A stretch of 64,000 nt of DNA from Tetradesmus obliquus (lineage: Eukaryota; Chlorophyta; Chlorophyceae; Sphaeropleales; Scenedesmaceae), in contig CP126198.1 in assembly GCA_030272155.1 (NCBI GenBank), positions 5,423,501 through 5,487,500 on the forward strand, read 5' to 3'. The position numbers were made by a program, and so were the translations under genes. Shown one piece after another: positions 1 through 46,900 of the stretch (positions are counted from its first letter, which is position 1; the number at the start of each line of letters is the position of its first letter). Below the pieces are notes generated by a model that had not been told where the DNA came from, did not search any database, and saw nothing but the letters and a program-made list of their open reading frames with translations.

Positions 1-245
1 CCTGTGGTCAGCCACCGCCTAAGGCATCCCAGTTCCATACATAAAAGCTTCCCTGTACCCTTTTCGTCTGCAAAACCACCACCCACCCACATATGATACA
101 GTGAACATTGTTTTGTATGCCCACTTGCTTGCATGCCCCTGCATGTGCTGTCTCTGCGCATAAGCACACACACCCGCACCTGGCAGCCAAAGGCTGGCAG
201 GCTGTCCTGTGGTCAGCCACTGCCCCAAGTGAAGGCTGTCGTGTT
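1..245 (-). repeat. Donor-side copies of exon 67
   Basis: Sequence at about 177-245 repeats the 3' end of exon 67 ([13 protein letters not shown] with its GT donor), and positions 1-24 are the start of another copy cut by the window edge. They lie downstream of the intact exon in transcript sense, about 180 bp apart. This is the typical donor-side arrangement. Confidence 0.8.
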
Positions 246-641
246 ATTTCCTTTGCCAAACCACACCACCCCCGCACAATATACTACATTGATTCATCAT
301 GATCCAACACAGCATCGCTTGCTTGAATGCCCTTACATGTCTTCTCTTTGCACAAGAATAGCGCACCTGGCAGCCAGAAGCTGGCAGGTTGTCCTGTTGT
401 CAGCCACTGCCTCAGGCACACCACCCGCCGTGCTAGGTCAGCCAGCCAGCTGGCAAGAGGCTTGGAGCTTGGGTAGGCTGCTGCCAGCCACGCGGGAGGC
501 ACCTGGTGGTTTGCGAGTGCATTCAGGCTGGCCTCTGCCTCTGCACTCAGCACCTGCAGCCCTGCAGTGACCGCCTGCAGCTCCTGCAGGCTGCCACGCA
601 CCACTGCCAGCAGCTGGTTGTACCTGCAGCAGCAATTGATT

Positions 642-699
<58 letters not shown>

Positions 700-794
700 T
701 GATCAGTCGCAGCGCAGCACTGACGGCCTGCTGCTCCTGCAGACTGCCACGCACCACCGCCAGCAGCTGGTTATACCTACAGCAGCAGTTGATT

Positions 795-867
<73 letters not shown>

Positions 868-3522
868 TCAGTCGCAGCCCAGCAGTGACCGCCTGCAGCT
901 CCTGCAGGCTGCCACGCACCACTGCCAGCAGCTGGTTGTACCTGCAGCAGCAATTGATTGCAGCAGCAGCAGCAGTTTGATTGCAACAGTCGACTTTAGA
1001 CCAATTGTGCATATGCAAAAGGCATCCTACAATGCCCCGACAGAGGTGCAGCTGCAGCGAACATGCTTCACCTGAGCAGTGGTGCCGCTGTCACCAGGCA
1101 AAAGGTAATACAGATCACACACATTGCATGGAGAAATTATGCGCCATCACATTGTCTCTGAATTTTGCTAGATCAGGCGATCATGCCTACCTGTCCATCT
1201 CCTGCAGCACCACCATGCCCAGAGGTCCCCCCTGCCCCATCAGGCAATATAATGAATCATGCGGCACATCCATTACATGATAGGGACAACCATAAAATGC
1301 ATAGCTCACCTGTCCATCTCCTGGAGCAGCACCATGCCCTGAGCACACCAAGCATATGACTCCCAGCAGGCAGCATAACAATCACAAAACCCAATCCTCC
1401 TCAGAACAAGCCATGAACGCATCGCTCACCTGTCCATCTCCTGCAGCAGCACCATGCCCAGCAAGTTCACCCTGCCATCCGGCAGTGCAGCAAATGGATC
1501 ATGCGGTCAGCACATGGAACAAGCACCCTCAGCTGAACCCATATTAGCTCACCTGTCCATCTCCTGCAGCAGCACCATGCCCTGAGCACACTAAGCATAT
1601 GACTCCCAGCAGGCAGCATAACAATCACACATCCAAAACATGCTCAGAACAAGCCATCAATGCATTGCCTACCTGTCCATCTCCTGCAGCAGCACCATGC
1701 CCAGGGGGTTCACCCTGCCCCCAGCAGGGAAACCACAGATCACATTGCAAATCCAGCACATAGGTCAAACCCCCTTAACTACACCCATTTTTGCCTACCT
1801 GTCCATCTCCTGAAGCACCATGCCCAGGGGGTTCACCCTGCCACCCGGCAGCGCAGACAACAGATCTTGCAGTCAACACACGGAACGATCAACATCAGCC
1901 TAACCCATAATAGCCCACCTGTCCATCTCCTGCAGCAGTACCACCCCCAAAGAGTTCACCCTGCCTCCCGGCAGGGACACTACCAACCACATTGCACATC
2001 CAACACATACCAAGCCACGTCAACCTAAACCCTTTTTTGCCTACCTGTCCATCTCCTGCAGCAGCACCATCCCCAGCGAGTTCACCCGGCCTCCCGGCAG
2101 CGCAGCAAACGGATCATGCAGCACCGACGAATCCTCCCGCCGCAGCGGCCCAGGCAGCTGCTCCAGCATCTCTGCAATACGCTGCGCCAGCACTGCCTCA
2201 GCAGAAGCAGCACCACCCGGCACTGCTGCTGCTGCTGCTGGCGCTGCTGCTGCACTTTTTGAGGCCATTGCACTTATCGGCCGCCGCGGCGACAGGCCCG
2301 CCGCAGCACTGCTGCTGCTGCTGCTGCTGCCGTCCCCGACTGACTCTGCTGTGATGCGAGGCTGCATTGCAAGCACATCATCCATGAAGCGCCGCGCCTC
2401 TTTCCTGCTGCATGCGATGCTGGCATTCGGGTGCAGCCCAAAGAGCCGCGGGTCGTCGTCTGTCAGCGGCAGGGCACGGATTTGGGACAGGCAGCTGGCC
2501 ACGTCATCGCCTGATGGACTGACAAGCAGCAAATCACCTGCAGCAGCACCAGCGGCAACAGCAGCAGCAGTAGCAGCAGCAGCGGGTCATCATCTGTCAG
2601 CGGCAGGGCACAAATCTGGGACAAGCAGCTGGCCACGTCATCACCTGATGGGCAGACACGTAGTAAGTCACCTGCAGCAGCAACAGCAGCAGCAGCAGCA
2701 GCAGCCAGTCATCGTCTGTCAGCGGCAGGGCTTGAATCTGCGACAGGCAGCAGGCTACGTTATCGCCTGATGGGCTGACGAGCAGCAAACCACCTGCAGC
2801 AGCAGCAGCAGCAGCAGCGGGTCATCATCTGTCAGCGGCAGGGCTTGAATCTGCGACAGGCAGCAGGCTACGTTATCGCCTGATGGGCTGACGAGCAGCA
2901 AACCACCTGCAGCAGCAGCAGCAGCAGCAGCAGCAGCGGGTCATCATCTGTCAGCGGCAGGGCACGAACATGGGACAGACAGCTGGCCACGTCATCGCCT
3001 GATGGGCTGACAAGCAGTAAATCGCCTGCAGCAGCATCAGCAGCAGCAGCAGCAGCAGCAGCCAAATGCCTTGCGAGATGGTGGTGTGGGATGGTGGCAT
3101 CCTATGCGTTGCAGCACAACTGTGCACGCCTGCTCTGTCGCACCCCCGCCTTCATTCATCACAAGCAAAGCGATGCATACCAGGAAGCAATGTTTCCATA
3201 TGTCAGTGCTCACCCTTGCTTGTCAGCTTGTGCTGCTCCCCGAGAACTGAAGGCTGCAGGTGCTGCTGCACAAACAGGCCCAGCAATGCCAAATCACTGC
3301 TGTCCCTGTAGCATCCTACATATTGCCTGACAACAAACCAGGCATTGCACTGACCCTTGCTTGTCAGCTTGTGCTGCTCGCCCAGCACTGACGGCTGCAG
3401 GTGCTGCTGCATTACCAGGCCCAGCACTTTCAGATCGTTGCTGTCCATCATACGGCCGCCATAGTTGATCTGGCCCACGATGTAACGCAATGCGTTCCAT
3501 GCTGATCCACCCATCGGCCCAA

Positions 3523-3555
<33 letters not shown>

Positions 3556-5034
3556 CAGGTGTGGCTTCCAGGTCGTTGCTGAGGTCCTGAACAATGCCTT
3601 GGATGTTTTGCAGCGCGCAGCTGAGGTCCGCGTGGGAGAACTCGTACGGGACGTTCCAGCCGAGCGCACCAAACTTGCGCCGCTCCTGCAGGCAGCAAGA
3701 TTTAAGAGGGTGCACCAGCATGGCGGTTTGTTGAGTCAGCAGTTTCGTAGCTGTTCTGCATAGTGCATCTGCTGCTGATCACCTTCGACAGACATGCACA
3801 TGGCATAGCAGCATAGCAGTGCATGCTGGCAACCCTACAGACGGCAGGTTTTGTTTACTTTGGGGCTTCCTTCCAGCCAGCCAGTGGCCACAAAGCATGG
3901 TTAGAACAAAGCCACAAAGACGAGAGTGGGGCAACACACAACTCAATGGCCCCTAACGCACCTGCAGCAGGCCGTGCAGCAGCGCCGTCACAAACACCAG
4001 CCGCTGCCACTGCTGCCCGCGCCCGCAGCTGTTGCAGGACGCCAGGCAGCCCGCAGGCAGGCTGGCATAGCTGCGCAGCAGTGTGGGCTTGAGCCCGCGT
4101 GGCGGCTCCAGTGCAACTCTCACACCTGTAAGCACAGCAGGACACGACAGTATACAACATGACATGTTACACAAAAACACCAGTTGCTCTCTTTGAGGCT
4201 GGCGTAGCTGCGCAGCAGCGTGGGCTTCAGGCCCCGGCGAGGCTCCAGGGCGACCCTCACACCTGTGCACAGCAGGGTATGACAGTTTGTGCATGACGCT
4301 TTATGTACTATAGGTGGGGTTAACCCGCGCCAGCATCAGTGCTGCAAAGCTCTGGTGCCCAGAACAGCACTGCAACAGCTGCACATGGCCAACTCATCAC
4401 CCCGCCACCACCACCCCACCTTTCTGCAGCACGGCGGCTGAAAAGTAGTCCACTGGTGCCGAGGTGAGCCACAGCCTGAAGCTGGGGTGCAGCTGCATCA
4501 GCTATTGAAGTATAGTCATCAGCTAAGCGCTGCGACAAGTGTACATAAGCCCTCGAACCCCTTCCCTAACCCACCTTTCTGCAGCACAGCAGCAGGGAAG
4601 TAGTCCACTGGTGCCGAAGTAAGCCACAGCCTGAAGCTGGGGTGCAGCTGCTGCTCGGTGTCAGGGGAGCGTCCCGCCTCCTCCAGGCGCTCCACCAGCT
4701 GGGCCAGCTGCGGCATCCATGACTTGGCCAGGTGGCAGTTCTGCGGGCAGACAAGGCCACAAGACATGATTTGTTATGGAGGTTGGTATGATTTGTTTCG
4801 AAGGTGGGGAGCGGCCCGCCTCCTCCAGGCGCTCCACCAGCTGGGTCAGCTGCGGCATCCACGCCTTGGCCAGGTGGCAGTTCTGCACGCAGCAAGGCCA
4901 CATGACATCATGATGGTTGTTGTTATTTTATACTACGAAGGTGCAGAGGTGCTGTTGAATCAACAGGCCATGCTAGCTGGCACGGCTGCGGCATCCATGA
5001 CTTGGCCAGGTGGCAGTTCCGCATACAGGCAGGG

Positions 5035-5082
<48 letters not shown>

Positions 5083-5086
5083 CATG

Positions 5087-5138
<52 letters not shown>

Positions 5139-6050
5139 CATGCAAACAGGCGGTCGGGCAGGCAGACAGGCAGGCAGTTCGGGCCCTGCCCCTAACCCAG
5201 TCTGACCACACTTGCCACAATGAAAAGCGCACCACAACAGCACTCCAAAATCCAGCAAACACATGTGCTTCTCAGCCATCAAATCGGGCAATGCCGCAGG
5301 CAGATTACCCACAAAAGCAAACATAAAGCACATCAAGTTGCCAGGATTGAGATACCTGCTTATTCTTCTGTGTTTGAAGGTTCTGGCCGTATCTGGCCCT
5401 GGCTTGTGGGATTGCCCCGTCTGGTCAGGAATCACCTGAGGTGGTTTGGGAGTGGCTGCCTTTCTAGGTACCGTCTCTTGCTAGCAAAACGTGTAATTGA
5501 TTGATTGATTGATTGATTGATTGAAGTTGCCAGGGCTGCAGCACGAACCTGTAGGCACACCCAGTCCCCGCTCTTCATGGCCATCGTCACCAGCACCTCA
5601 GCCACCACAGCACACACCCAGACAAGGCACAGCATAATCAAGCTTGAAGGTGCGGACCCAACCCTAACCAAATGTATTGAACCTGTTCAACCTAATCAAA
5701 CCCACGCGCACCTGCAGGCACACCCAGTCCCCGCTCTTCATGGCCATCGTCACCAGCGCCTCAGCCACCGGGCCCTGCCCCTGGCCTAAACTGACCACAC
5801 TCAGGCCCCGGCCCACCGCCCGGCCCTGCTCAGCCGCCGCAAACCGCGACAGCTCAGCGATCGCATCAGCCCCTTGAGCCAGCAAGAAGATGATTGGTGT
5901 GTAGGGGCTGCTGTCAAGGTAGATTTCGGAGAGGGAGGTGATGGGGGTGTCGGCAAAGGAGGGCCCAAGGTGTGCGGTGACGTGGCGGCGCAGTGCTGGC
6001 AGCAGCAGCTCCTCACGGCAGACCTGGCGGCAGCAGCAGCAGCAGCAGTG

Positions 6051-6081
<31 letters not shown>

Positions 6082-6455
6082 CAGCAGCAGTGGTGTGGCG
6101 GCAGCGGAAGCAGCAGGCGCAGATGCAGTCAGGTGGGAAAGCTGTGCAGATGCAATGCTCAGTGTGCGCTTGACCGTTGCGTAACGCAGCACACGTGTGT
6201 AGTGCACATGTGCTGAAGACGAAGCAGCAACTGCACCCTGCAGGTGCTGTTGGTCACAGCATTGTTGCGCTTGCAGACCACCAAGCGACAATGGAAAACA
6301 AATCACGCAGCAGAATGGCGGGCAGCTTATGTGCAGCAGTCTCACAAGTGGCCCACCTTGATGAGCAGCAGCTTCTGGAAAGGTGTCAGCTTGTTCTGCT
6401 GGCCCCTCCAGCTGCGCTGATGCACAAACTTTGCACCTGCTTGTTGCTGCTGCTG

Positions 6456-6487
<32 letters not shown>

Positions 6488-7350
6488 TGCGCCCCATGTC
6501 AGCAGCAAGGACGAGCCTGTCCAGCAAGCACATCACACCTGCACCCGCTGCTTCATCACTGCTGCTGCTGCTGCTGCTTGCCATGAAGTCAGAAAGGCTT
6601 CCCCGTAGCAGCAGCTGCTGCCAACCAGGGCTGTCACTCGGCGTCCTTGGCCTGCCTTCAGCAGCAGCACCACTGCTATTGCTGCTGCTGCTTCCAATAG
6701 CTTTACGCAGGCCAGTGAACGCTTCCGGCACTGCCCTCTCCAGTGCAGCGACCCCTGTCCACACCGCTGCTGTGCACCACGCAGGTTTCTGCAACTGCTC
6801 TAAAGCCTGACTGCCCTGCCTTCGGCCCTCAGCTGCTGAGCCTGCAGCAGCAGCCGTAGACTTCCCGCCAGCATCTACAGCAACCCCACCACCCGCAGCA
6901 CCGGCAGCAGCAGCAGCAGCAGCAGCAGCAGCGCCAGCTGCTGCAGCAGCCCTACTGCCTCGCAGCAAGAACTCCCACTCAGCATTACTAATCTCCCCCT
7001 TGTCCCGCTGCCCAGCTACTGCCACCATAAAAGTAAACACCAGCTTATGCACCTCAAAGAGCCCCCTGCACACCATACGGTGCATGTACGCCGTCATATA
7101 TGTTACTAACGCTTGCAGCCGCGCCTCAAGTGTAGGTGCAGTCGGCGCTGCAGCAATTGAGTGCTGATACATGCCTTTGAATGCGGCCAGGCTAGCTTGG
7201 TACATTGGATCCAGTGCTGCCAAGTCGGCCACAACAAACCAGAGGTGTGCAGCAACAGCTGGCGGCCCTCGGTACTCGTCTCGGGCCTGGCTGAGTTGAG
7301 CTTCTGTGAGCTCCGCCTCGCGCACGCGGCTCTGGATGATGCCTGCAGCC

Positions 7351-7381
<31 letters not shown>

Positions 7382-10300
7382 CAGCAGAGGTTGTGCATTT
7401 GCAGGAAAAAAGCCACATCAATTTCCACGCTCAGTCGGCAGCAGGTACACTGATGCCCAGCAAATGTACCTTGAGGGTCACCGTCAGCTGAAGCCGCATC
7501 GGCCGCTGCAGCCGCATCGGCCGCTGCAGCCGCAGCAGCAGCAGTCGCACCTGACGTCTGCTTGGCCGTGTTCAGTGTTGAGATGAGGCTCTCATCATCC
7601 AGCAGGTTGCCGCTGGCCTCGCGCAGCAGCCACAATATGCATGCCACTAAAACCTACAGCAAGTCCAGCAGCCACCAACTGCTGGACATGACTTCCCAGT
7701 CATGATACACAACATCAGTCCTGAGCAGTAAGCCACAAGGGCCGCACACCCACCTGACGTCTGCTTGGCCGTGTTCAGTGTTGATATCAGGCTCTCATCA
7801 TCCAGCAGGTTTCCGCTGGCCTCCAGCAGCAGCCGCAATGTGTGTGCAAAACTCTACAAAACGAGCAGCAGCCACCTAGCTGCTGCCGTGCCTTCCCAGT
7901 CAGCATACACAACATCAATCCTTAGCAACAATCCATCAGGGCCGCACACCCACCTGATGTCTGCTTGGCCGTGTTGAGTGTTGATATCAGGCTCTCATCG
8001 TCAAGCAGGTTGCCGCTGGCCTCGCGCAGCAGCCGCACTATTTGTGCAACAAAACAACTACAACATGTCTAGCAGCCACCTAGCTGCTGCCGCGCCTTGC
8101 CGGTCAGCACACACAGCATCAATGCAAAAGGGCAGCACACCCACCTGACGTCTGCTTAGCTGTGTTTAATGTAGAAATCAGGCTCTCATCGTCAAGCAGG
8201 TTTCCGCTGGCCTCTCGCAGCAGCCGCAATGTGTGTGCAACAAAACTCTACAAAACAAGCAGCAGCCTCCTAGCTGCTGCCGTGCCTTCCCTGTCAGCAT
8301 AAACAACATCAATTCTTAACATCAATCCATCAGGGCCGCACACCCACCTGATGTCTGCTTGGCCGTGTTCATTGTAGAAATCAGGCTCTCATCATCCAGC
8401 AGGTTGCCGCTGACTCCCCCCAGCAGCCGCAACGTGTATGCACCGAAACTCCACAAAACGAGCAGCAGCCACCTAGCTGCTGCCGTGCCTTCCCAGTCAG
8501 CATACACAACATCAATCCTTAGCAACAATCCATCAGGGCCGCACACCCACCTGATGTCTGCTTGGCCGTGTTGAGTGTTGATATCAGGCTCTCATCGTCA
8601 AGCAGGTTGCCGCTGGCCTCGCGCAGCAGCCGCACTATTTGTGCAACAAAACAACTACAACATGTCTAGCAGCCACCTAGCTGCTGCCGCGCCTTGCCGG
8701 TCAGCACACACAGCATCAATGCAAAAGGGCAGCACACCCACCTGACGTCTGCTTAGCTGTGTTTAATGTAGAAATCAGGCTCTCATCGTCAAGCAGGTTT
8801 CCGCTGGCCTCTCGCAGCAGCCGCAATGTGTGTGCAACAAAACTCTACAAAACAAGCAGCAGCCTCCTAGCTGCTGCCGTGCCTGCCCTGTCAGCATAAA
8901 CAACATCAATTCCTTAACATCAATCCATCAGGGCCGCACACCCACCTGATGTCTGCTTGGCCGTGTTCATTGTAGAAATCAGGCTCTCATCATCCAGCAG
9001 GTTGCCGCTGACTCCCCCCAGCAGCCGCAACGTGTATGCACCGAAACTCCACAAAACGAGCAGCAGCCACCTAGCTGCTGCCGTGCTTCACAGCCAGCAT
9101 CAACAGTGACAACAGCATCATTCCATAGCATCAATCCAAAAGGGCCCACCTGATGTCTGCTTGGCCGTGTTCAATGTAGAAATCAGGCTCTCATCGTCAA
9201 GCAGGTTGCCGCTGGCCTCACGAAGAAGCCGTAGGATCTTGCTCTCCAGGTCCCCAAGCTGCCGCGTGTCTGCAGCAATGCTGGTGATGAGGGCATCATG
9301 GGACTCCTCAAGTTCCGGCCGCTCTGCGCGGACCAGCTCAGCTAGCAGCTGCTCTTCTAGGCCCTGCGGTGGTTGGGTAAACAACACCAAACAGCAGCAG
9401 TTTCACAATGTACAAGCATTTCAGCATGACAAGGTCAGTGTGCACCAGCTCTGCGAGCAGTAGCTGTTGCAGGTCCTGCAGGTGGCAAGTAAGCTGCACA
9501 CAGCAGCAGTTGGTGGTGATGAGGGCATCATGGGACTCCTCAAGTTCCAGCCGCTCTGCGCGGACCAGCTCAGCTAGCAGCTGCTCCCCCAGGCCCTGCA
9601 GCGGTTTGGGAAAATCATGACACAGCAGCAGTTTCAAACTTCTCAGCCGGCAGATGCTGCTGCGGACCCGGCAGAGTAAAAGTTAAACAGCAGCAGTTGG
9701 TGGTGATGAGGGCTTCATGGGACTCCTCAAGCTCGGGGCGCTCTGCTCGGACAAGCTCAGCCAGCAGCTGCTCCTCCAGGCCCTGCGGCGGTTGGGCAGA
9801 CAAACAAGCACAGCAGCAATAGAACTGTTCTATCCAAGGCTTGGATGTTACAGCGGCTCATAAGGCCGGCAAGCACCAGCTCTGACAGCAGCAGCTGCTG
9901 CAGACCCTTCTGCGGCTGGCAAGTGAAACTGCACAAACTCACGGTAACACAGCGCAACAATCAGCATCTTTAACCGTGCGTCACTGTGAACTCCACGAGG
10001 TTGATGCAGATGTAGGCAATAGAATAAGGACAACCAACCTTCAAATACGACGCTGCCATGTCATTTGCTGCACCAGAACACGCACCTGGCGCGTCACTGT
10101 GAAGTCCACAAGGTTCACCCTTATGTAAGCCTCCGGCAGGTAGTGCGGGTTGGCCAGGCGGCACGCCATGTACAGCTTGAAGTTGGGGTCGTAGTCCACC
10201 AGACGCTCACCCAGCCGCACCACGCTGCGCCCGGCTGCGGTGAGGGGAAAGCGATGCAAGCAGGCGGCACAGACGCCAGCAAAATACCACACACTGAGCA

Positions 10301-10837
10301 AGTGTCTAGTGCATGCCGCAGGTGACACCTGATGATGCTCAAACTGCATTCCGCCGCTACCACAGCGTATGCAATAGGCCACACACAACAGACGTCAGCA
10401 ACTGCACATGTCGCAGAGCTGCGGTTGCCCACCTTGCTTCTCCACCTGGCGCAGCAGCAGTGCGTCCATGCCCGCAGGCAGGCTGCCATCAGCCATGCCC
10501 TCAATCAGCAGCGGCTGGCCCAGCTGCACTGCGCCTTCCACCTGCGGCAGCAAAAGTTACAGAGGCACGGGCAAAGCACAAGAGCCTGCTCAAGCCTATG
10601 CTTTGAACTCTGTAACTGGATCATGTCAGCGCCTAACGTTCTGCATCAGCACTCATCTGCTGATGCGCCTGATGCCCTGTAAGGTGGTGCCAACACCCAC
10701 AAGTGACTAACTACCCTCTCTCAAGATGCTTCCTGTCAACAATGCCCTTCCACGCACCTGGCGCAGCAGCCCAGGGTCTGACGCGCGCACCACAACCAGC
10801 CCAAGTGCACGCTCCTTGGCGCGCACCCAGCTGCACA

Positions 10838-10871
<34 letters not shown>

Positions 10872-13800: not shown

Positions 13801-13981
13801 GCAGGTTGTGTGGCATTGGTTTTATGCATGGCCAACGCACAGCCATACACGATTCTAAAAACAGCACACAACGTGTGTGTGCTGGCTGCTGCACATTGTT
13901 GTGCCCTCACCTGGAACTGCAGTGAGGCCAGCTCGCTCTGCGTGTCGGAAATGAAGTACAGTAAAGCTAACACTGTAAGTG

Positions 13982-14026
<45 letters not shown>

Positions 14027-17661: not shown

Positions 17662-17693
<32 letters not shown>

Positions 17694-19532: not shown

Positions 19533-19569
<37 letters not shown>

Positions 19570-19642
19570 CGGCAGCATGTGTATGTCAGGGCGGGATCTG
19601 GTCCAGCAGCAGCGCCTGCTCCTCGCTCGTGAAGAGGCCTGC

Positions 19643-19699
<57 letters not shown>

Positions 19700-25604: not shown

Positions 25605-25643
<39 letters not shown>

Positions 25644-30121: not shown

Positions 30122-30164
<43 letters not shown>

Positions 30165-30776
30165 TAGTTTGATGCAGGCAAACAGCATCACCTGTGCCAC
30201 CAGTGCATAGTCTGGCACAACCACGGCGACAGGCCAGAACAGCACCTGCAGGGGAGCAGCAGCAGCAGCAGCAACAACAGCAGCAGCATCAACAGCAGGA
30301 GGGTTATTTGGCACAGGCAGAGCATTGAACTCAAGCGTAATGGTCACAAGCACACAGCAGAGACAGCCGCACCTTCAAGTCATCGGGCAGTTCTGTTCTA
30401 CCAGCATAGCCCACGTTCATGGTGATGAACACACCACAGGTGGGCAGCAACGCCATCCAAGTGTCAGCCCTCCATCCACATGTACTTCAACATCGCACAT
30501 GGTGGAGATGGTACCCAAATGCACCACCTCAAAACCCCAGTAAGGAGGGGTAGAGAGCTGTACAATTGGCGGGAGGTCTGGCTGACACAATGTCACCTAT
30601 TTGGCATAGGCCACCAGACAGCGGACCCTCACCTTCAAGTTATCGGGCAGCTCTGTTCTACCAGCATAGCCCGGGTTCATGGTGATGAACACACCACAGG
30701 TGGGCAGCAGCGCCATCTCCCGCCCCTCGAACAGGAATCGCTCCGCACTTGCACGCAGCGCAGCCTGGAAGCAGGG

Positions 30777-30841
<65 letters not shown>

Positions 30842-32134: not shown

Positions 32135-32173
<39 letters not shown>

Positions 32174-33840: not shown

Positions 33841-33876
<36 letters not shown>

Positions 33877-36055
33877 AACTCGAGGCGGTTGATGCCCTCG
33901 AAGCACTTTGCGAGGTGCGGCTGCACTGCCTGAGGCACCTTGGCTTGCCGCAGGATGTCCAGCAGCTCCTCATTGGACAGGAAGTAGAACCTGGAGTAAC
34001 AGAGCAGCATGAGGTGAATCAAAGGGGGTGTGGAGGTATGTGGTCGGCATTCAAGGTGAGCTCTGACCTGATGCAGTTCAAGTCAAGGTTGGACTGGCAC
34101 CCATACTGATGCTTGTGCCCAAGGCTCCTCCACAGGTGCTGGTACACATGGCTACTGGGAAACAGCATGCACGCAATCAAAATAAGTTCCGCTTGTAATC
34201 AATTTGTCCGCACCGTGGGAAGGCCACGCGCTTGGTCTCCAGGTAATCTTCCAGGCCCTTCTGTACCGCCTCCAGCGTCTGCCCACACACCAGCAGCGCC
34301 TCCAGCCAGCCAGGCGTGGTGCCGCACTGGGCAAACAAACATGAATACACAGGCAATGCGTGCGCGAGCAGGGCATAAGAAGCAGCTATGCATGGAGAGG
34401 TTGAGACATTCAGCAGGGGCGGTATCTGCCCACACACCAGCAGCGCCTCCAGCCAGCCAGGTGTGGTGCCGCACTGGGCAAACAAACATGAATACACAGG
34501 CAATGCGTGCGCGAGCAGGGCATAAGAAGCAGCTATGCATGGAGAGGTTGAGACAGTCAGCAGGGGCGGTATCTGCCCACACACCAGCAGCGCCTCCAGC
34601 CAGCCAGGTGTGGTGCCGCACTGGGCAAACAAACATGAATATGCAGGCAATGCGTGCGTGAGCAGGGCATAAGAAGCAGATATGCATGGAGAGGTTGAGA
34701 CAGTCAGCAGGGGCGGTATCTGCCCACACACCAGCAGCGCCTCTAGCTCCACTTGCGCAAACACCGCCTCTGCCGGCACCTGGCGCTGGATGTCTGGCGC
34801 AGGTTTTCAAACCTCACACATAATAACAACTTCAAGCATCACACGGTGACACAACGGCTAGCAGATTTTCCCTCTCTCCCTTAGCAACAGATAGAGGTAA
34901 CAAACACTATCGTACAAGTTGTGATTCGCACCTGCAGCGCTGCCGGCCTGTCATGTGTGCGCCGCATGATGTCCTTGTACGTCCTGTCCACCTGCGCAAA
35001 TGCTGCCGCCTCTGCAGGCACCTGGCGCTGGATGTCCGGCGCGTGCCACTTTCTGTTTGAAACTGCACACTCACAACAACCAGCAAACCTGCCCCTATCT
35101 CCCTTGCACCGGCTTCCAGCAAGCGATATCGTCAAACATAACTCACTTGCAGCGCTGCCGGCCTGTCGTGTGTGCGCCGCATGATGTCCTTGTAGGTGCG
35201 GTCCACCTGAGCAAACGCCGCTGCCTCAGCGGGCACCTGGCGCTGGATGTCTGGCGCGGCAAACACAGCCTCCAACACCTCACATCTTCAAACATCACAC
35301 GGTGAGACACCGGCTAATAAACCTGCCCCTATCCCCCCTGCACCGGCTTCAAGCAAGTGATATTGCTTCATGCAAACCAAACTCACTTGCAGTGCTGCCG
35401 GCCTGTCGTGTGTGCGCCGCATGATGTCCTTGTAGGTGCGGTCCACCTGTGCAAACGCCGCCGCCTCTGCAGGCACCTGGCGCTGGATGTCCGGCGCGGC
35501 AAAAACAGCCTCCAGGGCCAGCCAGCCCTTCTGCACCACCAGCCAGGCTTCCAGGGTTTGGGAGAACAGCTGCAGCTGCTTGTCCAGGCGGTCAACTTCA
35601 GACCTGTTTGAGTGTGTGATAAGAGAGATACAACAGGCGCAAACGGCGATTGAAGGTCAACATAGCAGACACAGAGGCATGACGGAGGTGTGCTTGGAGA
35701 GCAGCTGCAGCTGCTTGTCCAGGCAGTCTACTTCAGACCTGTTTTTGACAAAAGATGCAACAGCCACACATGCTGGAACTCATGTGGTTGCACACTGCGA
35801 TATGCGCAGGCAGAGAGGCAGGGCAGGTGAGAGTTGTGTGGCTGCGGGTACTGCTGTGCATTTGCATAACAAACTCAATCAAGATATCATGCACTGCTGT
35901 ATTTCACCATATTCCCTGCACAGATCATCACACACACTGCAACACATGCAGAGTATAGCCGTGCTGCTGGGTTGTGGCCTCACTTGATGCCCGCCACGTA
36001 GCGAGAGGCCTGGATCATGGCCATGGTGATCTTGCTGTCCTCAAGCACCTGCAGC

Positions 36056-36089
<34 letters not shown>

Positions 36090-36162
36090 GACGGCAGCAG
36101 CAGCAGTAGCAGTGGTGAGGCCTGGATCATGGCCATGGTGATCTTGCTGTCCTCAAGCACCT

Positions 36163-36204
<42 letters not shown>

Positions 36205-38749
36205 GGCAGCAGCAGCGACGGCAGCAGCAGCAGTAGCAGTGGCGAGGCCTGGATCATGGCCATGGTGATCTTGCTGTCCTCAAGCACCTGCAGCAAGCAG
36301 CAGCAGCAGCAGCAGCAGCGGGCAGCAGCCGCGACGGCAGCAGCAGCAGTAGCAGTGGCGAGGCCTGGATCATGGCCATGGTGATCTTGCTGTCCTCAAG
36401 CACCTGCAGCAAGCAGCAGCAGCAGCAGCGGTATACCACCGTGAGCCAACATGACCACCAACATGCCATCACGCCAGCAGCAATGTCATTTACAATCACA
36501 TGCTGCAGCTTGTATGCAATTGTGTGTGCAAGCAAGCATGCGACATAAGCATCTCACAGGCCCGCACCTGCATCACATCGTCCACCTCCCCCAGCACGAA
36601 TGGGCCCTGGGCTTCTGTTGCATAAATATGTGCGCAAGCAAGTGTGTGACATGAGAAGGCACACAGGCGCGCACCTGCATCACGTCGTCCACCTCTCCCA
36701 GGATGTACACCATGCTGCCACCCAACACGACTGCTAAAGCTGACGCATGCATGCAATTCAGCAAGTGACACATGAACAGCACAGGCGCGCACCAGCATCA
36801 CGCCGTCCACCTCGCCGAGGATGGGTGTGTGCAAGCAAGCGTGTGACATGAAAAAACCGAGGCGCGCACCTGCATCACATCATCCACCTCGCCCAGGATG
36901 TACACCTCCTTGAGGTCCTTGAAGCGCCGCACACTGAACTCCACAGCGCGCCACCTGCGCACAAAGTTTGAACAATGAACATTCAGCAAAACTTGCCAGC
37001 TAGAGGCGTCACTTAACAAGGCAACTGCCTCAATCATCTTGCAGGAAACCACTGCCAGTTGGCCTGTGCCATGCGCCGATGCTGTCTGCCCCCCAGGAGT
37101 GGCATTCACGTGTCTGCCACCTGGGCTTCTATTGAATCTACCACACGAGTCAAGTGTATCAGCCATTCAGCAGGGACCACTGCTGTGTGGGTGGCTGTAC
37201 CATCCACTGCTTCTGTCGAGTGCTCCCAGGCATGGCGCTCGCTTGTCTGCCACCTGGGCCAGTAGGTGCTGCCGCTGCCGCGCTGCTGCTGGCCGCTGTT
37301 GCTGCTGCTGCAGATCACTTTCGGTGCCCGCGCTCACTTGTCTGCCACCTGGGCCAGCAGCGCCTCCAGCGCAGCTTCCTGGGTGGCCTCGCCGCTGATC
37401 ACTGCCAGGCGCTCCTTGTGATCCAGCACCTGGATATACAAAGCAGTGTAACACAAATCATCACATGTTCAGCACGGATTTTGACACCAGGCACTAGCCC
37501 AGCCTGCAGGTACTCCGGTCTTGTAGTGCACATACAACCAGCAGGACCAGCGACAGCGCTACACACGCCCACACAGATACACACAAGCGGGTGTGTGCCT
37601 ACAGCAGACAACCACAAGTCGCGTGCGGCACCAAACATCATTGCCCGTGTGTTGTGCTCAACTGCTGCATTTGCAGCAACATTTATGTGCGCTCCCCACC
37701 TGCATGTCCAGCAGTGTCGTAATGCTGGTGGCCGCGCCAGGGCTGCGGTCCACCTGGCGCCCCAGCAGCTCCGCCACCGCAGTCCAGTGGCGCTCCCGCA
37801 GCTGCACATTGCGCAGGTGGGACACAGGCCCAAGTAGATCCTGCAATTTGCATCAGTCATGCTTAAAGCAGGCACTTCAGACGAGCAAAAAAGCAGGCAC
37901 ACGGGAGCGGCTGCACGTTGCCCAGGTGCGACACAGGCCCCAGCATGTCCTGCAGCAGCACAATAATCAAGCACTACAGCCAGGTCAACCAGCTAAGCGC
38001 AACTGTATTATGAGGGGATGGCAGGGCAAGCGGGAGCAGGCGCATAAGAGCAGCTGCAAAGGAAAGCGCAGCTCAGGGCCTGCTGCCAGCACCTGAGGCC
38101 GCCGGGCCAAGCTGTGCATGCTGCTTGATGGAACACACGGTCCACGTGGTTGCGGCAGCAGCGCCGCGCACACAAGCGTGACAAGTATGTAACAGCTTGA
38201 ATAAAGAAGTACAGGCATATCTGGCAGTAAAAGCTATGACTAGCCTTCTCATGCAAGTCATCAGCATGTCCCCGCACCTGCCACTGCGCCACGCTGTCCC
38301 TCAGCCGCGGCACCAAGCTGTTGGGCGGCAGGCCCCTCTCCAGCCGGTGCACCTGGCGGCTGACGCGCTCAACCTGCAAGTGTACAGGCAATGGAGCAGC
38401 ACAATGCAAAGTTATTGCAGGGTACAAAGGGTTGAGGAAGTTGACAGCACACAAGCAGCGCTTAGCCTGCAAGGCTGGCGCAAACTGTGTCCATAGCAGG
38501 AGCGGGATGCAGCGAGCTGCTGCCATGCAAGGCAAAGCAGAACACACTGGTGTATATATTTGTCCTTTTACACTGCTCGCTGCGAAGCAAAACAGGGCCC
38601 ACCTGCTCTGTCATGTCCACCACATCCAGCTCAAAGAAGGGCGCCTCCAGCCAGGCGCCTGTCGACGCGCCCCACTGCTGCTGCAGCGTCCACAGCAGGT
38701 GCTTCAGCTCCACGTCACCTGCAGCAGCAGCAGCAGCAGCAGCAGCAGC

Positions 38750-38782
<33 letters not shown>

Positions 38783-41700
38783 CAGCACTAGCAAGCGCAG
38801 TATACGTAAACGCTAAACAGGCGAGAGCATCCACATTGACGAAGAGCAGCTGATGCGTAGGCACTAGCCCTAGCAGCAGGACAACACAACGCAGCTAGCG
38901 CCTCAAGCTCGTCCAGCACCACAGCAGCTTACGTATAACATCCTGGTGAGGCCAACATTGGCAAAGTACAAGCAGTCATGCACTTGCAGCCAGCCAAAAA
39001 CCCAACAGCGAGCTCGTCCATCACCACAGCAGTGCCACCGCACTGCACCCATCCATTGGCCAACGCACAAAAAATAGGCGCGTGATAGAGGTGATACACT
39101 CGGCAAGCAAACCAAACCCACCAGCCAGTGCCTCCAGCTCGTCCATCACCAGAGCAGTGCCGCCGCACTGCACCGCCAGGCTGCTGAGGCGCGCTGCAGT
39201 GGCCTGGTGCGCCTGCACCTGGGCCACCAGCTCTGCAGTGGCGGCAATGACTGCCTGCAGGTCTGCAGGCAGAAACAAACACAGGCAGGGAGGCAGGCAG
39301 GTACAGCAGCAAAACAGCTTGCTTTACAATAGTGGTTAATAGCCTGCATTTAGGCTGAGCATGGTCCTGCACCTGGGCCACCAGCTCTGCAGTGACCGCC
39401 TGCAGGTCTGCAGGCAGAAACAAAGACACAGCCAGGCAGGAAGGCAGCAGAGCAGCAGAACAGCTTGCTTACACAGGTGAATGACAGCCCATTCAGTCTG
39501 TACATGATAACGCACACAGACTCTGTCTTGCACCTTGGGCGAGATACCTGCCACTGCGACACATCCGGCACCCACGCAGCGCGTCTTACTCAGAATCCTA
39601 CATGCACATGCTCTATTGAGGCAACTGGACAGCCGCTCGCTCACCTTTATCGGCTGCAGGAACATCTCCTGCTGCTCCACCAGCCGCAGCATTGAAGCCT
39701 GCATGCACATGCTCGCGCAAGGAACCAAAAGCAGGCCGCCTGCTCACCTTGTGTTGGCTGCAGAAACATCTCCTGCTGCTCCACCAGCTGCATTCAGGCT
39801 GTGCATGGTCCCAAGCACAGTGCTGTCTTGCATCCACATAAAGTTCAACCAGAATGACTGCAACTTATCCTGCATCCAAGCAGTGCGCCTCACTTGCACG
39901 CATGCATACTCATGTACACGTAAGGCACAAAGGCCACATGCTCACCTTGTGTTGGCTGCAGGAACATTTCCTGCTGCCCCACCAGCCGCAGCTTGGACAC
40001 CTCCTGCGCTAGCGCAGCAGTCTGCTGCTCCAGCTGCGCCAGGAAGGCCTGCAGGGCAGTGGCAGATGTTTGCAAAGGTATGTGCAATTGGAACATACGT
40101 GAAGCAATGCGCGGTGATGTGTGGCCGTGCATGGACAGCGCAGCAGTCTGCTGCTCCAGCTGCGCAAGGAAGGCCTGCAGGGCAGTGGCAGATGTTGGCA
40201 GATGTATGTGCAAATCAAACATGTGTGAACCAATGCGCGGTGATGCATGGCCGTGCATGGACAGCGCAGCAGTCTGCTGCTCCAGCTGCGCCAGGAAGGC
40301 CTGCAGGGCAGTGGCAGATGTTTGCAAAGGTATGTGCAATTGGAACATACGTGAAGCAATGCGCGGTGATGTGTGGCCGTGCATGGACAGCGCAGCAGTC
40401 TGCTGCTCCAGCTGCGCAAGGAAGGCCTGCAGGGCAGTGGCAGATGTTGGCAGATGTATGTGCAAATCAAACATGTGTGAACCAATGCGCGGTGATGCAT
40501 GGCCGTGCATGGACAGCGCAGCAGTCTGCTGCTCCAGCTGCGCCAGGAAGGCCTGCAGGGCAGTGGCAGATGTTTGCAAACATATGTGCAATTGGAACAT
40601 ACGTGAAGCAATGCGCGGTGATGTGTGGCCGTGCATGGACAGCGCAGCAGTCTGCTGCTCCAGCTGCACCAGGAAGGCCTGCAGGGCAGTGGCAGATGTT
40701 TGCAAAGGTATGTGCAAATCAAACATGTGTGAACCAATGCGCGGTGATGCATGGCCATGCATGGACAGCGCAGCAGTCTGCTGCTCCAGCTGCACCAGGA
40801 AGGCCTGCAGGGCAGTGGCAGATGTTTGCAAAGGCATGTGCAAATCAAACATGTGTGAACCAATGCGCGGTGATGCATGGCCGTGCATGGACAGCGCAGC
40901 AGTCTGCTGCTCCAGCTGCGCCAGGAAGGCCTGCAGGGCAGTGGCAGATGTTTGCAAAGGTATGTGCAATTGGAACATACGTGAAGCAATGCGCGGTGAT
41001 GTGTGGCCGTGCATGGACAGCGCAGCAGTCTGCTGCTCCAGCTGCGCAAGGAAGGCCTGCAGGGCAGTGGCAGATGTTGGCAGATGTATGTGCAAATCGA
41101 ACATGTGTGAACCAATGCGCGGTGATGCATGGCCGTGCATGGACAGCGCAGCAGTCTGCTGCTCCAGCTGCGCCAGGAAGGCCTGCAGGGCAGTGGCAGA
41201 TGTTTGCAAAGGTATGTGCAATTGGAACATACGTGAAGCAATGCGCGGTGATGTGTGGCCGTGCATGGACAGCGCAGCAGTCTGCTGCTCCAGCTGCACC
41301 AGGAAGGCCTGCAGGGCAGTGGCAGATGTTTGCAAAGGTATGTGCAAATCAAACATGTGTGAACCAATGCGCGGTGATGCATGGCCATGCATGGACAGCG
41401 CAGCAGTCTGCTGCTCCAGCTGCACCAGGAAGGCCTGCAGGGCAGTGCCAGATGTTTGCAAAGGTATGTGCAATTCAACATGCGTTAAGCAATGCACCGT
41501 GATGCATGGCCGTGCATGGACAGCGCAGAAGTCTGCTGCTCCAGCTGCGCAAGGAAGGCCTGCAGGGCAGTGGCAGATGTTTGCAAATGTGTGTGCAATT
41601 GAACATGCGTGAAGCAGTGCGTGGTGATGTGTGGCCGTGCATGGACAGCGCAGCAGTCTGCTGCTCCAGCTGCGCCAGGAAGGCCTGCAGGGCAGTGGCA

Positions 41701-43249
41701 GATGTTTGCAAAGGCATGTGCAAATCAAACATGTGTGAACCAATGCGCGGTGATGCATGGCCGTGCATGGACAGCGCAGCAGTCTGCTGCTCCAGCTGCG
41801 CCAGGAAGGCCTGCAGGGCAGTGGCAGATGTTTGCAAAGGTATGTGCAATTGGAACATACGTGAAGCAATGCGCGGTGATGTGTGGCCGTGCATGGACAG
41901 CGCAGCAGTCTGCTGCTCCAGCTGCGCAAGGAAGGCCTGCAGGGCAGTGGCAGATGTTGGCAGATGTATGTGCAAATCGAACATGTGTGAACCAATGCGC
42001 GGTGATGCATGGCCGTGCATGGACAGCGCAGCAGTCTGCTGCTCCAGCTGCGCCAGGAAGGCCTGCAGGGCAGTGGCAGATGTTTGCAAAGGTATGTGCA
42101 ATTGGAACATACGTGAAGCAATGCGCGGTGATGTGTGGCCGTGCATGGACAGCGCAGCAGTCTGCTGCTCCAGCTGCACCAGGAAGGCCTGCAGGGCAGT
42201 GGCAGATGTTTGCAAAGGTATGTGCAAATCAAACATGTGTGAACCAATGCGCGGTGATGCATGGCCATGCATGGACAGCGCAGCAGTCTGCTGCTCCAGC
42301 TGCACCAGGAAGGCCTGCAGGGCAGTGCCAGATGTTTGCAAAGGTATGTGCAATTCAACATGCGTTAAGCAATGCACCGTGATGCATGGCCGTGCATGGA
42401 CAGCGCAGAAGTCTGCTGCTCCAGCTGCGCAAGGAAGGCCTGCAGGGCAGTGGCAGATGTTTGCAAATGTGTGTGCAATTGAACATGCGTGAAGCAGTGC
42501 GTGGTGATGTGTGGCCGTGCATGGACAGCGCAGCAGTCTGCTGCTCCAGCTGCGCCAGGAAGGCCTGCAGGGCAGTGGCAGATGTTTGCAAAGGTATGTG
42601 CAATTGGAACATGTGTGAACCAATGCGCGGGAATGTGTGGCCGTGCATGGACAGCGCAGCAGTCTGCTGCTCCAGCTGCACCAGGAAGGCCTGCAGGGCA
42701 GCGGCAGATGTTTGCAAATGTATGTGCAAATCAAACATGTGTGAAGCAATGCGCAGTGATGCGTGGCCGTGCATGGACAGCGCAGCAGTCTGCTGCTCCA
42801 GCTGCGCAAGGAAGGCCTGCAGCAGCACAGCAGCCATCGCCAGTGGTGGTTTGCACGCGTCATAACAGCTGTAAGTTGTAGCAGCGCGTCAGCAGCAGGC
42901 TTGCATGCATGTACAGGTTCACGTGTTTGCAAGAAGTGTGAGCAGCTGGCGGCCCTACTTGTGCCTGTCGGTCTTTGGCAGCCTCTGCAGCCCAAGCAGC
43001 CCCCCGCAGCGCGCCGTAGTCCACGTCCATGCATCAACAGGATGCATATGTTGCAGCAATCGCAAATGTTACAGAACAGAATCCAGGAACCTACCTGTGC
43101 CTGGCGGTCCTTGGCAGCCTCTGCAGCCCAAGCAGCATCACGCAGCGCGCCGTAGTCCACGTCCATGCAGCGCGCAGCTGCCACCTCCTCCTCAGGGGCA
43201 GGAACGCCAAACTCTTCCAGCAGATCGTAGTGCGCAGAAACCTAAGGTT

Positions 43250-43280
<31 letters not shown>

Positions 43281-43373
43281 AACAAGCATCAGCAGAGACA
43301 GCCGCCACCTCTTCTTCAGGGGCAGGAATGCCAAACTCCTCAAGAAAATCGTAGTGTGCGGAGACCTGGGTGC

Positions 43374-43408
<35 letters not shown>

Positions 43409-43869
43409 GTAAGCAGCAGGAACAGGCACACAAACTCATCCTCTGGTGCACGCGTGCCAAACTCCTCCAGCAGGTCGTAATGCACAGAAACCTAAGGTTG
43501 CAGCAGCAGTACCAGCAGCAGCAGCAGCAGCCGCAGCAGCAGCGGAGCAAGCATCAGCAGGACAGGCACACCAACTCGTCCTTGGGCGCAAGAATGCCAA
43601 ACTCCTCCAGCAGGTCGTAGTGTGCAGAGACCTGAGGTGGCAACATCAGCAGATGTATCAGCATGGGGAGCAGCAGGAACAGCCGCAACAGATCCCCGAC
43701 AACCGCAACAGGTCCAACAGCATTTGCGGACACGTTGATATGATGGCATGCAGAAGCATGGGAGCAGCAGCAAAGCTGTCCGGCCAGTTGCTGACCACCA
43801 AGGTGACACAGAGCTGCGCTCACCGCATCAAACCCAGCATCCATAACGATTTATGGCATGCAGAAAACT

Positions 43870-43936
<67 letters not shown>

Positions 43937-46900
43937 CAGCAGTTCGACCAGCCGCTGCAATGCTGCTGGTGCAGGGCTGTACTCACCTTATCAAACTCAG
44001 CGTCCATTGCTGGCCGCTGCGCCTCCACCTCAGCAATGAGCGCTGCATGTGCCACAAACTCGTCTGCAGTGGAGGGCTGCTGGCTCAAGCGCTCCCTGCA
44101 GGCAACCGGACATCATGCAACAGTCACAACTAAGTTGCAGCTCGGTGATTGTTCTGTCGTTGCTTGCAGGACACCAGCAGACAGGAAGGCTGCTGGCTCA
44201 AGCGCTCCCTGCACGCGTCAGCATGCAGCAGCACTCAACAATCATATTCACTTGCAGCATTGTGGATGTTGGCCTGCATGCGGTGGAGGGCTGCTGGCTC
44301 AAGCGCTCCCTGCATGCAAGCGCCAGCATGCAGAAACCCACAACAATCATGATCAAGATGTGGCTTTATTGTTGTTTGCTTGCAGGAATAGTTCAGTCAA
44401 GCTGTCGCTTGCATGCAGCTAGTTGTTACTGCTTGCAGGAGAAGGACAGCCGACAACGGCAAACCCTGCAAGAAAAGTGGTAGGAGCTTGCAGGAGATAG
44501 CACCCTTGAACCTCTGCGCACTCCAAAGCTGAGCAGCCGCCGCCTCACCTGTAGCTGCGCACTCTGCTGATGAAGGTGTTGTAAGCAGAGACAGCCAGGC
44601 AGGGCAGCAGCTGGTGAAGCTCTGCCAAGCAGTGTTGGGGCGAGGGAGCCAGCGCTGCCACCAGTTGCCCCAGCTGCACCTCCAGCACACCAACAGACCT
44701 GCAACGCACAGTGAGGATGTTTAGGTTTGCAGTCCACTCTTGGACCTCCAAATAGCTTGCACACTGACCTTCTTTACGTGGGTGAACAATCAACTATGCC
44801 ACCAAGTGTTTCCCAGCCACAGCAAGTGCCAACCTCTGCCACAGGGTCAACATTCGCACATTTCCCAACTAGTTCGGCTCAAAGCACGTTTTGCATGCGC
44901 ATACTCACACAACGTGCGGGATGTTCCGCACATCCTCCACCTGCTGCTGATACGCCAGCAGCAGCCCCCTGAGCCCCTCCAGACCCAGCTGCCCTGCAGC
45001 AACTGCCGCCTCAACCGCCTGCCTGCTGAACTGGCGGTTGGCTACCGTCATCTCCCTGAAAGGCTCGAATCCTGCAACGTAGTGCTCCACTGCTGCCAGG
45101 GATTGCTGCAGGCTAGCTTCGAGTGCATGTGAGAGTGACTCGTAGTCTTCGCCGAGCATGATGGGCAGCAGGCCATCTGGGTTGTGGTGCTGCTGCACAT
45201 CAGGTGAAGACTCCATGAACGGCTGCAGCAGTTAGGAATTGTAATAAACACAGCAGCACAGCAAAACTAGGGTTTGTGCAGTGGATTGGTAGGAGTTGCA
45301 TGGTGTTGCGCGTATGCTGCAGGCTGCAGTTGCTCGTGGATGTGCATGCACATGCTGTGCACCTACGGCACATTGAGCATTGCTCGTGCTGTGCATGCAC
45401 GCGCATCAAGCAAGCAAACTTATGGCAGCAACAATACAGCTGATTGCTTGCAGGAACTCCACAAGCAGGACCAGCAGCAGCCATCACCTGCAGATGTAAA
45501 TGCTGCAGCAGGCGCGGCACAGCCCTTGCCATGCCTGCAATCCCCCGCAGCCACACTGCCAGCCCTTCTACAAACTCTGCAGCATGTGGCTGCAGCTGCA
45601 GCTGGCAGTGCTGGTGGTGCTGCTCCAGCAGCACCTCAAGCTGCAACACGCTGCTGCTGCTGCTGCCTGCGCTGTGGTGCGCATGAACCTGCATGGTCAC
45701 GGCGCGCAAAAGAGACCGTCAGCCATAAGATCCTCAGTTGTTGTTTGCTGCTGCAGGTAATGAGCATTGAGGCGCCCAGCTGCAACAGCTTCAGCATACA
45801 CTGCAAAGCGTTCACTGTCAACAAGCACAAACAATGCCCTCACCTCATGCCCTGCTGCTTGTTCAGTTACTGCTGCTGCTGTATGTGCTGCATGGCCTTG
45901 CAGGCACTGCAGCGCGTGCTGCAGCGAAGCCACGATCATGCTGTGCACGCAGTCAGCCACCATGTAATCCAGCAGCCTGATGAAGCCCAGCAACCGCCGC
46001 TTCTCTGTGCGTCGAGCAGCCTGCAGCAGCAGCAGCACAGCAGCAGCAGCAGCAGCATTTGTACAACCGGGGTGACTAAAGTGTGGAGCATGCGCGCTTT
46101 CCATGCTGCAGGAGATAACGCCACCAGCTGCAGCATCCCTGCAACATGCGGCTTCAGCTGCACATGAACTGCGTCTCATGCTGCTGCAATCAAGATTTCA
46201 GGTACACATGAGGCACCCCGAACTTATCAGAGCCAATCTGTCAACCGCACCTGCAGTGCGTACGAGTCACTCAGCATGTGGATCGGCTCCACAGCTGACA
46301 CTGCAGCTGCCGCTGCTGCTGCTGGCCCGCGCCGGAGGTGCAGCGCAGGCACAGCTGGCCTGCCTTCAGCCTCACTGGCAGCAGAAGACCGCCTGCAACG
46401 TGTGAGAAAGAAAGGAGTTTCACATGAGGGTCCTGGCACTATCTTAATTGGTGTGAGCCGCAATGCACGCAGCAGAGCAATGAGCCAAACAATGCAAGCA
46501 ACAGGGCAGCATAATCCTTGCTTCACATTGTCTTCTCACAGCAGAACCCGCTGCAGCAATTGCTACATCACGTACTGTTGACGTCCACATGCCAACAGTC
46601 AATCACAATTCACAGCACAGTCAGTGCACTGCTGCAAGGCATATGCCTGTTACCTGGCTGTCGCCGCCATGTCTGCTGCTGCTGTCGGCCCCCGCATCAG
46701 CTGCTGCTCCAGCGCAGCCAGCGCCGCTTCACATGCTGCCTTTGCTGCTGCCACAACTTGCGCTACAACCGCCAGCAGGTGCTTCTGCGCTGCTGCGAGG
46801 CATGCTGCGTGCTGCTGCTGGAACTCCTGCAGCGTTGTTGGCTGGCCGCTGGCAAGCAGGCTGAGCTGCTGACTTTCCACCTCAAGGCAGGCGCTCCTGC

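Follow-up and report, generated by a model that had tools for sequence, protein, structure and literature searches.

Segments that cross a single splice junction enlarge the introns of two linked dynein heavy chain genes in Tetradesmus obliquus

What is the origin of tandem repeats that fill the introns of a dynein gene in the scenedesmacean green alga Tetradesmus obliquus and carry the edges of its own exons, and does the gene make use of them? The question is raised by a 64,000 nucleotide stretch of contig C8 (C8:5423501–5487500; CP126198.1 of assembly GCA_030272155.1), termed here the window; the genome is 104.7 Mb in 17 contigs. The minus-strand gene of the window is predicted to encode a DNAH6-type axonemal dynein heavy chain. 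A second gene on the same contig, with DYNC2H1 as its best match, displays the same pattern. The introns of these two linked genes are enlarged by minisatellite-like duplication of segments of about 80–260 bp, and nearly all of the duplicated segments cross one splice junction.

The DNAH6-type gene extends from window position 49351 to position -1538 on the minus strand, i.e. its C-terminal end is 1538 bases before the first base of the window, in the adjoining locus L009. A preliminary description, made from the letters of the window, had placed it at 1..44325, a span that the gene passes at both ends. The top database match for a conserved dynein stretch in the window is the T. obliquus protein OEZ86_014676 (P0001). 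The three best structure matches are all DNAH6, the query being a partly intronic translation and the label one of best match, not of a tree. A first model, obtained by spliced alignment of the 4040-residue protein of a relative (P0002), has 67 exons. Two tiny exons in it were exposed by the annotated protein P0001, and one real exon at 2537–2045 replaces both. The corrected model displays 66 exons, 65 introns and a coding sequence of 12528 nt with zero stops. It takes the outermost splice sites throughout and gives a continuous open protein, on which, with the best matches, the DNAH6-type assignment is based. The outermost sites are probably the ones used and the inner ones apparently are not.

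The public model P0001 treats copies as exons, including a 466-residue stretch that comes from reading through the intron 11 array. This stretch is missing from the homology-guided model, and P0001 is itself without some stretches that the homology-guided model contains. Imperfect (GCA)n runs of up to ~220 bp (e.g. 642–866) are also present in many introns and some exons of the gene.

Tandem Repeats Finder (TRF), which is independent of any gene model, assigns repeats of period at least 40 to 35, 41, 28, 14 and 33% of the successive 10-kb blocks from window position 1 to 50000, but to only 2.7% of positions 49400–64000. At period at least 60 and with the first model, TRF alone detects 22 arrays in the gene; 18 cross one junction (12 acceptor, 6 donor), three were called internal and one is over the two doubtful exons. 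This last array is judged to consist of probable junction copies as well, as are two or more of the three "internal" arrays. When each exon-intron-exon segment of the corrected model is compared with itself, 56 arrays cross one junction (30 acceptor, 26 donor), one is internal to an intron and none is exonic. Arrays are found in 40 of the 65 introns, and in 16 of these the donor-side and acceptor-side kinds occur together. The preliminary description, which had reported copies that span exactly one splice junction and had proposed a dot-plot of the window against itself, is thus borne out on its central point. It went too far in assigning the arrays to nearly every intron from intron 13 on, as 36 of those 53 introns have them and the onset is at intron 9. 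Introns 1–8 (window 49351–44549) are array-free, which has a chance of ~0.0005 at the average rate in a test picked after the data were seen.

A strict Smith-Waterman scan with the first model gives 110 copies in 35 of 66 introns (the union was counted by hand from the listing), fewer than the approximately 150 counted by eye in the preliminary description. GT is present in 27 of the 29 donor copies and GC in the other two; AG is kept in 77 of the 81 acceptor copies. The reversed-query control of the scan gives 0 matches. With the corrected model there are 109 copies, 104 of which have the full splice dinucleotide. Whole-exon copies (90% or more of the exon together with 10 nt of either flank, within 4 kb) were found for none of the 66 DNAH6 exons and none of the 32 DYNC2H1 exons, i.e. 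0 of 98. Mutually exclusive or duplicated exons are therefore ruled out, as was also proposed at the outset, since no copy holds a whole exon with both splice sites.

The repeat unit has a median length of 128.5 bp in the two genes together. Unit lengths are evenly spread modulo 3 (28/25/29), and 54 of 82 are not multiples of three. The arrays have the head-to-tail units of tens to hundreds of bases of an intronic minisatellite, both by TRF and by self-alignment; they are not wholly non-coding, as all but three of the 85 arrays in the two genes (82) extend into the end of an exon. DNAH6 introns have a median length of 636 nt with arrays vs. 230 nt without. This difference, together with the single splice site of each copy, is consistent with the earlier proposal that the introns grew by duplication across the junction.

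The second array-rich gene is at 5.255–5.275 Mb of C8 as far as read, ~150 kb from the first, thus the pattern is not that of one gene, as had been supposed. Its best match, DYNC2H1, is the cytoplasmic dynein 2 heavy chain, and the model was made by alignment to the Chlamydomonas schloesseri protein. Junction copies are found in 18 of 31 introns by the strict scan and in 20 of 31 by self-comparison. The strict scan counts 13 donor copies, of which 12 have GT, and 27 acceptor copies, all of which have AG. In both genes together the splice dinucleotide is preserved in 141 of 146 copies. Among the best 120 of 3422 database matches none is above 87% identity, thus the alga's own protein is not listed among them.

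Other dynein genes of the same genome are nearly free of such copies. In 16 loci of 10 kb, which represent parts of ten genes and not entire genes, junction copies occur in 6 of 360 introns, vs. 35 of 66 in DNAH6 (Fisher P = 7e-27); these introns come from spliced alignment to references 39–55% identical, and some junctions are possibly off. Median introns are 175–220 nt and TRF coverage is 0 to 6.9%, in line with the scan. The count does not include loci L001–L008, L010, which is part of DYNC2H1 (4 of 12 introns with copies) and was subsequently merged with L011, or L022, which is identical to L021. L021 (C1:5550001–5560000) and L022 (C1:5646211–5656210), each with a dynein gene, are 96210 bp apart and base-for-base identical; this reflects either a large duplication of very recent date or a stretch duplicated in the assembly.

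The minisatellite share is 0 to 8.5% in five stretches elsewhere (L029–L033), 2.9% in L035 on C8 and 5.5% in L009. Thus the arrays seem to be concentrated in the two linked dynein genes, on a sample that amounts to only ~70 kb outside of the dynein loci and the window, and arrays of this kind seem from their sequence to exist outside dynein genes at a low rate. The mean intron of T. obliquus, 462 nt, is the longest among five algae tabulated in the accessible part of PMC5966456, and other array-rich genes may therefore exist.

The exon halves of the copies do not diverge as intronic sequence would. The set considered here is made up of the scan's copies with at least 8–9 aligned bases on each side of the junction; with the flank length used it varies from 144 to 146 copies and from 59 to 60 arrays. 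Relative to the real exon, the halves in both genes show 353 synonymous, 170 amino-acid and 1 stop difference; neutral copies simulated through the same pipeline (40 replicates) give 195, 292 and 13.2, with a lowest stop count of 4. Without DNAH6 intron 11, the largest array, the counts are 347, 161 and 1. Copies within an array are not independent, and array-weighted counts are 140, 75 and 0.1. The ratio to an expectation drawn from each copy's own intron part (with base and CpG context matched, bootstrap over 59 arrays) is 1.55 (1.18–1.91) for synonymous, 0.29 (0.22–0.38) for amino-acid and 0.07 (0–0.14) for stop differences, where neutral copies beside a constrained exon would give 1, 0.5 and 0.5. 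Differences between copies at codon positions 1, 2 and 3 are 6.0, 5.8 and 16.3%, and in 23 of 30 arrays the third position varies most. In the real frame there is 1 new stop vs. 27.6 expected; the wrong frames have 22 vs. 35.7 and 24 vs. 28.6, and the intron parts 57 vs. 63.7. Gaps open at 0.0254 per nt in the intron parts vs. 0.0027 per nt in the exon parts, and 16 of 20 indels in exon halves shift the frame. The 30 donor-side copies at a distance that is not a multiple of three have 84 synonymous and 34 amino-acid differences and no stop, the stop count being weak here (0 vs. 3.0 expected, P = 0.05).

These values suggest, with some reservation, that the copies are not free-drifting junk: their divergence is mainly synonymous and stops in the real frame are avoided whatever the distance from the real exon. 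At the amino-acid differences the outgroup residue is found in the real exon in 83 cases, in the copy in 13 and in neither in 48, and the copies are therefore not fully constrained. They look as if they had been functional exon ends for much but not all of their history, or had been purged via conversion that damages the exon. The earlier view of the duplications as nearly neutral, with the outermost sites in use, fits the open model built on those sites but not the coding-like constraint on the copies. Relaxed selection on the array genes was rejected because both genes still read open. DYNC2H1 is moderately faster-looking, with an identity to Cymbomonas of 0.50 vs. 0.57 for C. schloesseri, one control dynein giving 0.60 vs. 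0.61 to Sphagnum; the comparison for DNAH6 is uninformative, as P0002 is as far from the outgroups as T. obliquus.

The location of the arrays at junctions has to be weighed against chance. In a simulation with random segments of the observed unit lengths, the exons of this gene and introns of paralogue lengths, 62% of segments cross one junction, 16% are intron-only, 15% exon-only and 6% take in a whole exon. The junction position is thus largely as expected for random duplications of ~130 bp among exons of ~140 nt and introns of ~200 nt. Both genes have 85 arrays, of which 82 cross one junction, 2 are internal and 1 is exonic, and on this count a duplication process aimed at junctions, e.g. 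by transcription pausing or nucleosomes at exon edges, was favored at first. It was dropped, and is now considered unlikely. An old intron-only duplication is harder to see, as both of its copies drift, than an old junction duplication, in which the exon part of the copy is constrained. Young arrays (identity of 85% or more, with almost two full copies) number 12 at junctions and none in the internal, exonic or whole-exon classes; the internal deficit has P = 0.07 and the position of the junction in the unit P = 0.39 by a Kolmogorov-Smirnov test. A looser set, 23 junction arrays and 1 internal, does favor targeting (P = 0.03), and the junction is closer to the unit's center than expected at random (P = 0.006). 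In view of the detection bias and the non-significant young set, targeting is not claimed.

The best explanation overall, which would have slightly less than an even chance of being correct, combines tolerated random duplication with exchange of copies with functional exon ends. Segments would be duplicated roughly at random, and duplications within exons or of whole exons would probably be selected away as harmful to the protein. Duplication of a single junction would be tolerated because neither the first donor nor the last acceptor is lost, and a half exon that has just one splice site is likely not recognized as an exon. With less certainty, the arrays may recombine with the functional exon ends, such that the real exon and the copies would descend from diverged functional alleles joined by unequal exchange.

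A possible setting for such alleles is a mating locus. Only two matches to the RB_B (MAT3/retinoblastoma) family were found in the genome, both at C8:5130655–5131224, ~125 kb from the read part of DYNC2H1. MAT3 sits in the Volvox mating locus according to the available portions of PMC6123790 and PMC4856071; dynein is absent from the passages of the mating-locus literature that were searched for it. The database contains two DYNC2H1 proteins of Volvox carteri with a mutual identity of only 89%, which might fit mating-locus gametologs, as a lead only. Low recombination or deep allele divergence near the RB_B locus is in the same way a lead to a candidate cause for these two genes. The link of the array region to a mating locus is weak.

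Several results weigh against the combination of tolerated duplication and exchange. If functional alleles had exchanged sequence, the outgroup split should be more even than 83/13/48. The uneven split requires that the copies spent some time unconstrained, and with such a phase about 6 stops would be expected by a hand estimate, where 1 is seen. Identity of the copies to the real exon displays no gradient with distance (mean Spearman -0.11, 18 arrays), and an outward ageing of copies from the real exon was dropped for this reason. L034, 10 kb of C8 between DNAH6 and DYNC2H1, has zero arrays. As to the mating locus, seven RWP-RK matches are on C4, C6 and C12, away from C8; PDK-type matches are on C15 and C3, and a single weak AIG1/TOC34-type match is on C16; GCV_H matches are on C8 yet 4.5 Mb distant.

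A related proposal, possible but doubtful, is that the introns act as a reservoir in which alternative exon ends are conserved and from which they are exchanged with the functional exon, the region being linked to a gene of the mating locus. It is equally doubtful that, as such a reservoir would imply, half-exon copies are held in frame by selection without ever being translated as they stand. Somewhat less probable again is a load from conversion, in which non-coding copies often overwrite the exon end by gene conversion or array contraction. That carriers of copies with stops or bad residues would then leave fewer offspring, and the copies be purged in frame, is given the same low rating. 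Partial constraint (amino-acid 0.29, stop 0.07), the location of amino-acid changes mostly on the copy side (83 vs. 13) and the independence of the pattern from distance modulo 3 all agree with purging. The process would require high conversion rates and a very large population, and it leaves the synonymous excess of 1.55 (confidence interval 1.18–1.91) unexplained; a hand-worked lineage model suggests that conversion without purging would not yield the bias. Functional history and purging both require exchange between array and exon.

Direct use of the copies, i.e. splicing at inner donors or acceptors and translation into isoforms or in regulation, is improbable. The dinucleotides intact in 141 of 146 copies of both genes and the in-frame constraint on the exon halves would be expected of it, and in acceptor-side copies the reading frame stays open further when the phase is correct (median 57 vs. 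24.5 codons). Read-through or inner-site use would constrain a donor copy only at a distance that is a multiple of three, yet the 30 donor copies at other distances, which cannot be read in frame, have an equal synonymous bias; translation by either route is judged unlikely on this split. The frame-shifting indels (16 of 20) and the even unit lengths modulo 3 (28/25/29) also argue against use. Conserved splice sites in the copies were dropped as a sign of use: when retention in the copies alone is ranked by the number of offsets above the splice site, the donor site comes 16th and the acceptor site 3rd among 79 offsets, and dinucleotide retention is no higher than at codon positions 1–2 nearby (805/867; Fisher P = 0.11). 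Least probable by far is an assembly artefact, since some copies within arrays are only ~70% identical and the pattern is present in two genes while the sampled parts of ten similar genes are nearly clean in the same assembly.

Table 1. Positions of the DNAH6-type gene and its main arrays in the window.
Feature	Position	Strand	Basis or remark
DNAH6-type gene	1..49351 within window (on to -1538)	-	66-exon model, spliced alignment
Exon 63, corrected model	2045..2537	-	replaces two tiny exons
Acceptor-side array, ~153-bp unit	556..852	-	68 nt into exon 65 (first-model numbering)
Exon 65 (first model), last exon entirely within window	at array 556..852	-	
Donor-side array, end of exon 63, ~120-bp unit	1296..2100	-	TRF and self-comparison
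Acceptor-side array, start of exon 63, ~113-bp unit	2444..3059	-	TRF and self-comparison
Donor-side array, intron 56, ~203-bp unit, 8.3 copies	7548..9231	-	scan: 7 copies, GT in all
Donor-side array, intron 52, ~204-bp unit, 5.7 copies	10972..12133	-	scan and TRF
Acceptor-side array, intron 50, ~124-bp unit	12989..13433	-	scan and TRF
Donor-side array, intron 49, ~145-bp unit	15081..15413	-	scan and TRF
Acceptor-side array, intron 47, ~137-bp unit	15863..16222	-	scan and TRF
Acceptor-side array, intron 45, ~139-bp unit, 8.1 copies	17722..18851	-	scan: 7 copies, AG in 6
112-bp TRF array, intron 44, no exon contact	19427..19690	-	scan: 2 exon-45-start copies in intron
Acceptor-side array, intron 43, ~110-bp unit	20043..20322	-	scan and TRF
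Acceptor-side array, intron 42, ~124-bp unit, 5.8 copies	20781..21497	-	scan and TRF
Donor-side array, intron 40, 226-bp unit, 96% match	22963..23542	-	scan and TRF
Acceptor-side array, intron 36, ~131-bp unit	25178..25671	-	scan and TRF
Donor-side array, intron 34, ~122-bp unit	27131..27586	-	scan and TRF
Donor-side array, intron 30, 127-bp unit, 3.7 copies	29578..30046	-	scan and TRF
Acceptor-side array, intron 29, ~130-bp unit	30047..30292	-	scan and TRF
Acceptor-side array, intron 20, 147-bp unit, 97% match	34278..34747	-	scan and TRF
Acceptor-side array, intron 18, ~116-bp unit	36005..36429	-	scan and TRF
Acceptor-side array, intron 11, 126-bp unit, 22.3 copies	40011..42822	-	scan: 21 copies, all CAG|G
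Acceptor-side array, intron 10, ~124-bp unit, CAG repeats mixed in	43131..43530	-	scan and TRF

Outside of the dynein gene, a 113-bp array is found at window positions 51709–52109 on the plus strand, partly within an open reading frame that has a UbiA-type prenyltransferase stretch (Pfam E-value 4e-7, under the curated cut-off). Its unit seems to repeat coding sequence that has a donor-like GTGAG directly after it.

Earlier work on AGGT-type intron gain reportedly includes that of Gao and Lynch in 2009 and of Hellsten in 2011. Among the axonemal dynein heavy chain genes are kl-3 and kl-5 of Drosophila. The available portions of the papers cited below allow comparison with four known systems. 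A single duplication event spanning an intron-exon boundary has been described (PMC4974935). As here, the tandem duplication takes in the intron end, the acceptor and the exon start, but it is one event that gave a new intron and extra coding sequence. The present genes have tens of arrays with up to 22 copies, existing introns are enlarged, donor-side arrays occur too, and no new exon is present in the inferred mRNA. AGGT-type gain through exonic tandem duplication (PMC3443670) likewise yields extra splice sites by duplication in or near exons; there the new intron starts at the GT of one copy and stops at the AG of the following copy, and the donor and acceptor contexts are homologous. Here donor copies and acceptor copies are separate, and this origin is ruled out since the donor context matches the acceptor context in 0 of 65 and 0 of 31 introns (0/96). 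The Y-linked kl-3 and kl-5 have giant introns full of satellites (PMC6508621) and thus are also dynein heavy chain genes with introns filled by tandem repeats, but those are simple satellites over megabases, whereas the repeat units here come from the exon edges of the gene itself, in introns of up to ~3 kb. Polyubiquitin genes contain tandem arrays of dual-specific splice sites (PMC10809524), i.e. tandem repeats that bear splice sites; in that case the units are coding and are spliced in variable number, unlike the present units, most of which cannot code whole (54 of 82 lengths are not multiples of three). No account of junction-copy arrays throughout a gene was found among the titles and abstract openings listed in the literature searches, which were at most 20 per search out of up to thousands, subscription papers being mostly beyond reach.

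The arrays mislead gene prediction, as in the 466-residue intron 11 stretch of P0001. With well over 100 natural splice-site copies whose local context resembles that of the real sites, the two genes provide a ready test of exon definition in an alga. They also raise a puzzle, the marks of coding selection on half exons that are apparently not translated, which population sequences could settle.

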